From positions 22,398 through 86,397 of the forward strand of contig JANQFV010000021.1 of NCBI GenBank assembly GCA_028277645.1: a DNA stretch of 64,000 nucleotides, read 5' to 3'. This stretch comes from Phycisphaerae bacterium (GTDB lineage: Bacteria; Planctomycetota; Phycisphaerae; UBA1845; Fen-1342). Below, piece after piece: positions 4,098 to 53,115 of this stretch. The notes below the pieces were generated by a model. That model saw only the letters and a program-made list of their open reading frames with translations, searched no databases and was not told where the DNA came from. Made by a program: the position numbers and the translations under genes. Position 1 is the stretch's first letter. Each line of letters starts with the position of its first letter.

Positions 4098-5729
4098 ATG
4101 TCGCATCGTCGCTTGCTGCTCGTCGTCTGCACAGTTGGTGCTGTTGCCGTGGGTGCTCTCGCACAGACGAGCGCGACGCAGCCGACTTCTGACTGGCCGG
4201 TTTGGGGGGGAAATACCGCTCGATCGGCCCAGTGTGTGGCGGGGAGTATCCCGCACGAGTGGGACGTACATGGCGGGCAGAACATCAAGTGGAAGGTGCG
4301 GCTGGGTTCGTACAGCTATGGCGGGCCGATCATCGCCGACGGTCGCATTTACGTCGGTACGAATAATGCTGCGGAACTGCGTCCCGGCATTGCGGGCGAC
4401 AAGGGCTGCCTGCTGTGCCTGAGCCAAGTCAACGGCAAGCTGCTCTGGCAGGCCACGCACGATAAGTTGCCCAGCGGACCGCCAAACGACTGGCCGGAGC
4501 AAGGCGTAGCGTCGTCGCCAGCGGTCGATGGCGAACGCGTGTACTACGTCAGCAACCGCTGCGAGCTGGTGTGTGCCGACGCCCGGGGTTTTCACGATGA
4601 CGAGAATGATGGGCCGCTGCGCGCCGAGAAGCTGCGCGACAAACTCGACGCCGACTTTGTCTGGATCCTGGATATGATGGGGGAGTTGGACGTCTACCCG
4701 CACAATTTGGCGGCGTGTGCGCCGGTAGTTGTCGGCGATCTTGTCTTCGTCTGCACAAGCAACGGCGTCAATGACGAGCATGATACGCCGCCGAAGCCGG
4801 ACGCTCCGTCGTTCATCGCCGTCAACAAACACACGGGCAAGGTCGTCTGGAAACGCAACGACCCCGGCCGCGACATTCTGCACGGGCAATGGTCCTCGCC
4901 CGCGGTGGCTGTGATCGACGGCGTAACCCAGGCGATCTTTGGCGGCGGCGACGGCGTGTGTTACAGCTTTGCCGCCGAGACAGGGAAGTTGCTGTGGCGG
5001 TTCGACCTGAATCCCAAGGATGCCGTGTGGGAAGAAGCCGGCACGGGAACGAAGACCGCGATCGTCGCTACACCGGTGATTGCGGGGAACACGGTGTATC
5101 TTGCTGTCGGTGACGATCCGGAGCACGCCCTCGCGCCGGGCCATTTCTACGCGATCGATGCCACCAAACGCGGTGATATCACGCAGTCGGGCCGCCTCTG
5201 GCACGTGGGCGAAGAATTCAGCCGGACCATCGCGAGTGTGGCGGTCGCCGACGGGCTCGTGTACGCCACCGATCTGGACGGCTACCTGTCGTGCTTCGAT
5301 GCCAAGACCGGTAAGCGGCACTGGCGGTACGACATGGAGGCTTCGGTGTGGGGTTCGCCGGCGGTGATCGACGGCAAGGTCATGCTCGGCAACACCGACG
5401 GCGAGCTCATCGTGCTCAAGCACGGCAAGGAGCTCGAAGAGCTCGCCCGCAACGACATGCGCCAGCCGATCTACACCACGCCCGTAGGCGTCGGCGACAC
5501 GCTCTACATCGTGACGCAGAGGACGTTGTATGCGATAGCGGCGGGTAATGCGCAAAGTGCCGGAACTCCCCTCCCTAACAGGGAGGGGCTGGGGGAGGGT
5601 GGGGCGTGTGAACTTCTGATGGTTTACCCCCCTGTGGTCCCCCCTGAGAGGGGGGACGGTGCGGGCGCACGCTCCGGCGTCGGAGGGGAGTATGTCGATG
5701 ACTCAGGCCTCCTGGACGGGACCGGGTAG
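4098..5729 (+). CDS. Secreted PQQ-like beta-propeller repeat protein
   Basis: Signal peptide MSHRRLLLVVCTVGAVAVGALAQ; repeated YVGT../G.LLW/ VYATDLDGYLSCFDAKTGKRHW motifs. Confidence 0.85.
   Translation: MSHRRLLLVVCTVGAVAVGALAQTSATQPTSDWPVWGGNTARSAQCVAGSIPHEWDVHGGQNIKWKVRLGSYSYGGPIIADGRIYVGTNNAAELRPGIAGDKGCLLCLSQVNGKLLWQATHDKLPSGPPNDWPEQGVASSPAVDGERVYYVSNRCELVCADARGFHDDENDGPLRAEKLRDKLDADFVWILDMMGELDVYPHNLAACAPVVVGDLVFVCTSNGVNDEHDTPPKPDAPSFIAVNKHTGKVVWKRNDPGRDILHGQWSSPAVAVIDGVTQAIFGGGDGVCYSFAAETGKLLWRFDLNPKDAVWEEAGTGTKTAIVATPVIAGNTVYLAVGDDPEHALAPGHFYAIDATKRGDITQSGRLWHVGEEFSRTIASVAVADGLVYATDLDGYLSCFDAKTGKRHWRYDMEASVWGSPAVIDGKVMLGNTDGELIVLKHGKELEELARNDMRQPIYTTPVGVGDTLYIVTQRTLYAIAAGNAQSAGTPLPNREGLGEGGACELLMVYPPVVPPERGDGAGARSGVGGEYVDDSGLLDGTG
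5568..5588. repeat. Perfect hairpin CCCCTCCCT-AAC-AGGGAGGGG inside the 3' end of the CDS
   Basis: 9-bp stem, 3-nt loop; same stem recurs at 26891-26911. Confidence 0.9.
5637..5657. repeat. Perfect hairpin GTCCCCCC-TGAGA-GGGGGGAC
   Basis: 8-bp stem, 5-nt loop, also inside the CDS 3' end. Confidence 0.9.
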
Positions 5730-51177: not shown

Positions 51178-53115
51178 ATGGATCTCTTCGCCGAACAACG
51201 CGAAGCGGCGCTGCAGGCGGTGCATCCCCTAGCAGTGCGCCTGCGTCCCCGCACACTTGATGAATTCGTCGGGCAGGAGCACTTCGCCGGTTCCGGCCGG
51301 CAGCTACGCCGGATGTTGGAGGCGGACCGGCTGACCAGCGCAATCCTGTACGGGCCGCCCGGCTGTGGCAAGACGACGCTGGCGCGGCTCATCGCGGGGC
51401 ACACGCAGGCGGAGTTTGTGCAGTTGCACGCGGCCGAAGCCGGCGTCAAGGATGTGCGGCAGGTGATCGATGCGGCGCGCGAGCGGCTGCTCGGCGGTCA
51501 GCGCACGGTCTTGTTCCTCGACGAGATTCACCGTTTCAATCGCGCCCAGCAGGATGTGCTGCTCAAGGATGTCGAAGAGGGCGTGCTGATCCTGATCGGC
51601 GCGACGACGGAGAACCCGTTCTTCACGGTCAATAGCCCGCTGATTTCGCGCAGCCAGATCTTTGAGTTCAAGCCGCTCACGCCGGAGGAGATCGAGGTGC
51701 TGCTGCGTCGAGCGCTGGCGGATACAGAGCGCGGATTGGGTAAGCTCAATGTAACGTGTGATAACGATGCGCTGCGCTTCTTCGCCGAACGGGCGGACGG
51801 CGACGCTCGTCGGGCGCTGAACGCGCTGGAGGTAGCGGCGTTGTCGCAGCGTGTAGCTCAGCCGCCCTCGGCTGAGAATTTTGCTCAACCGTCCTCGGTT
51901 GAGCACTCAGCCAAGCCGGCAAGACTCAGGTATTGCCGTAACCTCCCCCACATTCACCCCAACGGCCGGCCAGTATTCATCACGTTTTGTACAGCAAACC
52001 GTTGGATTCTGCCGGAGCCGGTGCGTGGTGCGGTGCTGGAGCACTGCCTGCACGATCACGGGAAGAAGCTGTTCGTACACGGCGTCGTTGTGATGCCCGA
52101 CCACGTTCACATGGTGTGTACTCCTCTCGAAGATGGTCAGGGTCAACCGTACGGGTTGGCGGAACTGCTGAACGGGATCAAGGGGGCGTCGGCGCACACG
52201 GTCAATCGACTGCTCAAGCGACGAGGTTCTGTCTGGCAACCGGAGTCGTTCGATCGCGTACTGCGTACGGATGAGAAGATGGAGGAGAAGGTCGCGTATC
52301 TTTGCGCGAATCCGGTGCGCAAAGGGTTGGTGGCTGACGAGGAAAAGTACCCGTGGATCTGGCGCGAGTGGATTGAAGGGACGCAGATGCGAGGGGGGGA
52401 GAGTGGTGAACAGGGGAGTGCTCAGTCGGGGGCGACTGAGCCGGGTTCTCAGCCGAGGGCGGCTGAGCTCCATATTTCGCTCGAGGTGGCCGCCGAGTCG
52501 ATGCAGCTCAAAGCTGTTCCGTACGACGCGTCCGGTGACGCGCACTACGACATCGCGTCGGCGTTTATCAAATCGATGCGCGGCAGCGACCCGGACGCGA
52601 CACTCTACTGGCTGGCCCGGATGCTCGAGGGTGGCGAGGACCCACGCTTTATTGCCAGGCGCATTGCGATCGCTGCGTCAGAGGACGTGGGCAATGCCGA
52701 CCCGCAGGCAGCCATGCTGGCGGCGGCGGCTATCCAGATCACGCAGACCGTCGGCCTGCCCGAGTGCGAGTACGCGCTCGCGCAAGCCGCCGTGTACAAC
52801 GCCCTGGCGCCGAAATCGAACGCCGTGACAAAGGCCATCGCTGCGGCCAAACTGGACGTCCGCGCCGGCGTGACATTGCCAGTCCCCGAGCATCTGCGCG
52901 ACGCGAGCTATCGCGGCGCGGCCCGGCTCGGTCACGGGCAGGATTATCAGTACCCGCACGACGATCCGTCGGGATACGTAACCCAGGACTATCTAGGCAC
53001 GGCCAAATCCTATTACAATCCAACGCAGCGAGGTGTCGAGGGGCAACTGGCGGCGGCTTGGCGCGCGCTACGCCAGCGTCATGCTCAAGGGCCTGTGGAC
53101 GAACAGAAGACCTGA
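51178..53115 (+). CDS. rarA: RarA/MgsA-type AAA+ recombination factor interrupted in frame by a Y1 (REP-associated) transposase domain; single 645-aa ORF
   Basis: RarA N-part with GPPGCGKTTLARLIAG, LFLDEIHRFN, GDARRALNALEVAAL; C-part AFIKSMRGSDPDATLYWLARMLEGGEDPRFIARRIAIAASEDVGNADP; central block with MPDHVHM and AYLCANPVRKGLV. Confidence 0.93.
   Translation: MDLFAEQREAALQAVHPLAVRLRPRTLDEFVGQEHFAGSGRQLRRMLEADRLTSAILYGPPGCGKTTLARLIAGHTQAEFVQLHAAEAGVKDVRQVIDAARERLLGGQRTVLFLDEIHRFNRAQQDVLLKDVEEGVLILIGATTENPFFTVNSPLISRSQIFEFKPLTPEEIEVLLRRALADTERGLGKLNVTCDNDALRFFAERADGDARRALNALEVAALSQRVAQPPSAENFAQPSSVEHSAKPARLRYCRNLPHIHPNGRPVFITFCTANRWILPEPVRGAVLEHCLHDHGKKLFVHGVVVMPDHVHMVCTPLEDGQGQPYGLAELLNGIKGASAHTVNRLLKRRGSVWQPESFDRVLRTDEKMEEKVAYLCANPVRKGLVADEEKYPWIWREWIEGTQMRGGESGEQGSAQSGATEPGSQPRAAELHISLEVAAESMQLKAVPYDASGDAHYDIASAFIKSMRGSDPDATLYWLARMLEGGEDPRFIARRIAIAASEDVGNADPQAAMLAAAAIQITQTVGLPECEYALAQAAVYNALAPKSNAVTKAIAAAKLDVRAGVTLPVPEHLRDASYRGAARLGHGQDYQYPHDDPSGYVTQDYLGTAKSYYNPTQRGVEGQLAAAWRALRQRHAQGPVDEQKT
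51857..51876. repeat. REP-like hairpin CTCAGCCG-CCCT-CGGCTGAG (left 1)
   Basis: Perfect 8-bp stem. Confidence 0.92.
51883..51904. repeat. REP-like hairpin GCTCAACCG-TCCT-CGGTTGAGC (left 2)
   Basis: Perfect 9-bp stem. Confidence 0.92.
52421..52440. repeat. REP-like hairpin CTCAGTCG-GGGG-CGACTGAG (right 1)
   Basis: Perfect 8-bp stem; purine-rich loop. Confidence 0.92.
52448..52467. repeat. REP-like hairpin CTCAGCCG-AGGG-CGGCTGAG (right 2)
   Basis: Exact reverse complement of left 1. Confidence 0.92.

Follow-up and report, generated by a model that had tools for sequence, protein, structure and literature searches.

We found that the rarA gene in our window (the whole 64,000-nucleotide stretch of Phycisphaerae DNA that was analyzed) is interrupted in frame by a RAYT with REP ends. 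The best explanation, to which we assign a probability of roughly three in four, is a mobile element that preserves the reading frame, occupies a permissive loop of RarA, and is expressed through the host frame. A RAYT in frame within rarA, in a single 645-codon ORF, had been predicted from the sequence, and this was borne out: the translation runs to 645 aa with no stop, and the frame is clean across both junctions between rarA and the insert. The fused gene is organized as follows.

51178 to 53115, plus strand: fused ORF rarA(N)-REP-RAYT-REP-rarA(C) of 645 codons followed by a stop codon, translated without interruption
51178 to 51849, plus strand: RarA N-terminal half (residues 1-224), comprising the AAA+ domain, its Walker A (GPPGCGKTT), and its Walker B (FLDEIH); 3PVS residues 13-220 align
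51853 to 51908, plus strand: left REP pair, with the GTAG tag at 51853-51856, palindromes at 51856-51877 and 51883-51904, and the in-frame reading VAQPPSAENFAQPSSVEHS
51937 to 52368, plus strand: RAYT (Y1/HUH transposase) core, residues 254-397; best PDB match 4ER8 TnpA-REP
52102 to 52110, plus strand: HUH motif His309-Val-His311, with each His conserved in all embedded (58/58) and all free (63/63) relatives
52297 to 52299, plus strand: catalytic tyrosine Tyr374 (AYLCANP), kept in 58/58 embedded relatives
52416 to 52472, plus strand: right REP pair, an inverted copy of the left, with palindromes at 52420-52441 and 52447-52468 and the tag complement at 52468-52471
52471 to 53115, plus strand: RarA C-terminal half (residues 432-645), carrying the remainder of AAA_assoc_2 plus MgsA_C; 3PVS residues 239-441 align

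Pfam and NCBIfam placed the AAA+ and MgsA_C halves on either side of a Y1/REP-associated transposase segment, with the Pfam family AAA_assoc_2 split in two by the insert. The fused protein carries the domains of RarA/MgsA (PF12002, E 1.4e-63, and PF00004). When E. coli RarA/MgsA (PDB 3PVS) was aligned to it, both halves matched over their full domains, and about 200 extra residues stood in place of the short E. coli linker 221-238. In all 25 aligned rarA relatives the same loop is an empty site, reading ...ALEVAVLSQ-(short linker)-HVTLEVAAES..., which agrees with the predicted insertion into a variable linker and supplies the empty sites that had been looked for in relatives. Because the linker varies, the ends of the insert are uncertain by a few bases. 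The boundaries originally proposed (225/226 to 431) held on the C-terminal side, where RarA resumes at residue 432; the N half extends to about residue 224. All AAA+ residues checked (K65, T66, D115, E116, N146, and R158) are identical between the window and the 25 relatives. RarA and RAYT were modeled apart, as combined RarA plus RAYT alignments were misaligned; a full-chain model gave low confidence for the RAYT part owing to the lack of RAYT relatives there. The AF2 model of the RarA halves had a pLDDT of mostly 80 to 97 around the insert. With the HUH and tyrosine residues also kept, sequence and models are consistent with the earlier view that both RarA and RAYT appear preserved.

We searched 61 genomes with the fused protein, and none of the other 60 had an insert of the RAYT kind at the rarA site. 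The fusion sought in relatives was therefore found in 1 of 61 genomes. No second, intact rarA was found in the window's own genome (a 4.55-Mb draft, 94% complete), and among the genomes, most of which are MAGs, no pair of the same species was found in which one member had the rarA insert and the other lacked it. Two genomes of one genus (G026 and G016; loci L013 and L014) have an in-frame hairpin in the rarA loop that holds the window RAYT. The predicted energies of these hairpins are -90 and -86 kcal/mol over 141 nt, and their sequence is unrelated to the window insert.

RarA is dispensable in E. coli, and loss of rarA function would also be tolerated. The GC3 of the insert (0.71) is slightly below that of the host halves (0.77 to 0.80). 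Both the nonessential status of rarA and this lower GC3 favor a passenger that inactivated rarA, its frame open only through recent insertion. We consider such inactivation unlikely, since the AAA+ and C-terminal residues of RarA are conserved and, in relatives, the same kind of element is tolerated in ileS and alaS genes of which no second copy was found.

The insert in rarA has the structure REP-RAYT-REP, spans about 620 bp, and is free of stops from end to end in one frame. The original prediction recognized the RAYT but made no mention of the flanking REP ends that form part of the insert. Inverted repeats of 57 nt (51852-51908 and 52416-52472; 81% complementary) bound the insert, and two palindromes of ~22 nt lie within each (5 matches versus 0.06 expected). 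The ends are inverted GT[AG]G-tagged REPs of the RAYT kind, with GTAG on the left and a right end that reads GGAG; the GTAG tag is typical of REPs. Similar REP ends surround RAYTs in many relatives. The cognate REP is low-copy in the window's genome, with about seven further palindromes of the type (up to 2 mismatches) and one 55-nt match at 85%, a point that counts against the mobile-element reading. A REP palindrome in the same genome (G000:C19:79888-79907, L045) lies about 100 bp past the end of an uninterrupted purH. REP arrays read in frame often adjoin the RAYT insert in other host genes. Three loci (L058, L069, and L072) have long in-frame tandem arrays of REP-coded peptides (e.g., GSIGVPPVSSAQSP and HRRDACATPGEEGD) in ileS or purH loops, next to the embedded RAYT. 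No Rfam families were detected at the rarA-RAYT locus.

The window RAYT has an HUH motif (His309 and His311), one tyrosine (Tyr374), and a Y1 fold. The AF2 model of the core (mean pLDDT, 81.7) matched best the crystal structure of E. coli TnpA-REP, 4ER8, a match also recovered by sequence profile. Against NCBIfam NF047646 (REP-associated tyrosine transposase), the fused protein scored 76.9 bits (cut-off, 80; E 1.4e-21). The Y---Q motif of class 1 TnpA (PMC6006769) is absent, with N at position +4 after Tyr374 here and in 57 of 58 embedded rows. The Y1/HUH fold is, according to the model, shared with IS200/IS605 TnpA, but the window RAYT has Y...N rather than Y...Q after the tyrosine, and its REP ends are of the RAYT type.

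The element resembles the RAYT/TnpA-REP with flanking REPs (REPtron) of E. coli (4ER8), with which it shares the HUH motif with one tyrosine, the WQ and Y...NP motifs of RAYTs (PMC6006769), and inverted tagged hairpins at both ends. TnpA-REP binds and cleaves single-stranded REP DNA via the GTAG tag (PMC8266576). With its catalytic residues and tagged hairpin ends, the window RAYT could act on single-stranded REP DNA. Known RAYTs have been characterized as free-standing, mostly single-copy genes that are seemingly unable to move themselves (PMC3116915), whereas the window RAYT lies inside a host ORF and does not have its own start codon. Downstream of codon 222, the first in-frame ATG is at codon 306, just ahead of the HUH motif, which excludes a separate ATG-started whole RAYT. 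A GTG start at codon 282 or 286 would cost the RAYT its conserved N-terminal strand.

The search with the fused protein also gave RAYT matches inside very long frames in relatives. On inspection, these frames proved to encode glycine dehydrogenase, isoleucyl-tRNA synthetase, and PurH, each with a RAYT inserted in frame. Scans at the contig, order, and phylum levels added valS, leuS, rdgB, Hsp70/HscA, restriction-modification genes, and a PLD-helicase as hosts and, in Verrucomicrobiota, alaS, recG, priA, and metH; NCBIfam and Pfam confirmed host identity for representatives. At the order level, 37 of 39 matches (E<=1e-30) were embedded (19 in purH, 10 in ileS, 3 in gcvP, 2 in leuS, 2 in restriction-modification genes, and 1 in rarA). 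The distance from the RAYT to the frame end showed nearly two peaks: free-standing RAYTs mostly lay within 30 residues of it, and embedded copies about 90 residues or more away unless the contig ended. Related RAYTs also lie in frame within restriction-modification proteins (MmeI-like and type ISP) at L198, L196, L081, and L087. What the hosts have in common is a permissive loop, occupied in frame, within a conserved gene, rather than a role in replication-fork repair.

Among the genomes tested, no copies of ileS, purH, and alaS other than the RAYT-bearing ones were found, and in these the sequence on either side of the insert covers the family model. One genome (G015; 99% complete, 7 contigs) has RAYTs in its only ileS, its only purH, and also gcvP; in the window's own genome, ileS and purH are without a RAYT. 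A cell could not survive without IleRS or AlaRS, and with sole copies interrupted, large in-frame inserts of this type must therefore be tolerated. Of the 58 embedded RAYTs, 6 had an ATG in the 30 codons preceding the core; among 62 free-standing RAYTs, 38 did (Fisher P = 4.5e-9). Conserved catalytic residues together with scarce ATGs fit functional enzymes expressed through the host frame.

A few embedded copies on draft contigs are truncated or broken (e.g., a second ileS copy at L066). That ileS contig (G019 contig C212) has RAYTs at 2131-2547 and 4304-4641, at both known ileS sites; the second RAYT is divided between two reading frames, and a stretch of N separates the pair. Draft MAGs make up most of the genomes, which might hint at an assembly or binning artifact. 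We give this almost no credence: in-frame insertions with palindromic ends occur in dozens of independent assemblies, often at equivalent sites, and both junctions of the window ORF are clean. As for antisense embedding, 1 of 63 free RAYTs lay under a long ORF in another frame, a weak indicator given that antisense frames are often closed. One free-standing RAYT (L212; G123 contig C203) has a long opposite-strand open frame across it and may be an antisense embedded copy or a product of chance.

We built a tree of 121 RAYTs (58 distinct embedded) from a 143-column alignment, whose shortness limits resolution. One clade of 42 rows was entirely embedded, as was one Verrucomicrobia clade. Within the 42-row clade, purH (19 rows) and ileS (10 rows) required one label change each; their RAYTs form host-gene-specific clades. 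The window RAYT belongs to a clade (support, 99/93) that also has insertions in gcvP and restriction-modification genes and free-standing RAYTs of other phyla. Its lineage is therefore able to stand alone, and the grouping fits a mobile lineage. For purH, the host tree and the RAYT tree agreed in part only. RAYT identity did not track host identity (rho of -0.10 for purH and 0.12 for ileS, with noisy host values). These trees and identities do not distinguish among homing, gene transfer, and vertical descent with loss.

The original prediction had suggested that the RAYT may be a domesticated fusion or a means of coupling REP mobilization to stalled forks. If it served as an additional functional domain of RarA, linking REP processing to stalled forks, this would account for the apparent intactness of both parts in sequence and models. 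RarA and RAYT families both act on DNA at replication structures, a further point for domestication. We nevertheless find domestication very unlikely, as rarA carries a RAYT in only 1 of the 61 genomes and the same type of element occupies unrelated hosts (gcvP, purH, ileS, valS, and alaS), metabolic and translation genes unconnected to forks. On account of this range of host genes, we rejected a RarA-specific function of the RAYT. Selfish persistence of the element, we infer, is more likely than RarA-specific domestication.

Embedded RAYTs share with inteins that carry homing endonucleases a parasitic enzyme inside conserved essential genes and, in purH and ileS, one lineage per host gene. 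The insert could, in an intein- or mobile-intron-like manner, be removed after transcription or translation (by protein splicing, RNA splicing, or translational bypassing). The intein-like host range and host-gene-specific purH and ileS lineages would be in keeping with removal, as would potential base pairing between the inverted ends in RNA. We regard removal as very improbable. No Hint splicing domain or intein family was among the best 25 Pfam and best 25 NCBIfam matches of the fused protein, and the frame is open through the REPs and RAYT in nearly all embedded cases, which RNA-level removal or bypassing would not need. Unlike an intein, the window insert appears to stay in the protein.

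In-frame REPs within protein genes (PMC3733652) and REPs inside RAYT genes (PMC6006769) were already known. Intragenic REPs and Rickettsia palindromic elements (RPE) similarly place in-frame palindromes in genes, among them those for repair proteins and tRNA synthetases (PMC3733652), but they add palindromes alone (20 to 30 residues, at most about 80). The window insert has such an in-frame palindrome and in addition brings a whole transposase with its catalytic residues intact. In the open-access literature, we found neither a description of embedded RAYTs nor any account of whole transposases that retain their catalytic residues inside essential genes while the frame stays open. A 2018 survey of the superfamily removed proteins of unexpected length, treating them as gene fusions or annotation errors (PMC6006769), and the embedded class may have been filtered out there.

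Under the preferred reading of a frame-preserving mobile element, the RAYT would have moved into the RarA loop as REP-bounded single-stranded DNA, and the surviving insertions would be those that kept the frame. The rarA loop is a repeated target of insertions, and REPs in permissive loops may serve RAYT elements as landing pads. Host and transposase would form one 645-aa protein, with the RAYT made as an internal domain of RarA. Given the lack of an in-frame ATG before the HUH motif, the RAYT is probably produced only in this way, with RarA still folding around it. We infer single-chain translation, RarA activity, transposase activity, and mobility of the fusion.

The window element would be one member of a broader class of RAYTs, found in Planctomycetota and Verrucomicrobiota, that settle in permissive loops within conserved genes and rely on the host for expression. 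This points to a little-noticed group of genetic parasites housed within functioning genes. More tentatively, and with odds a little under even, embedded RAYTs could be a splicing-free counterpart of inteins: loop-specialized HUH-transposase lineages (in purH, ileS, valS, gcvP, alaS, and others) that gave up their own start codon, are made only as internal domains of host enzymes, and spread or persist through their action on in-frame REP hairpins in those loops. If embedded copies are translated, they would offer mobile elements a route to add large domains to core enzymes, let a transposase borrow host expression, and provide a natural setting in which to test whether RAYTs can move themselves.
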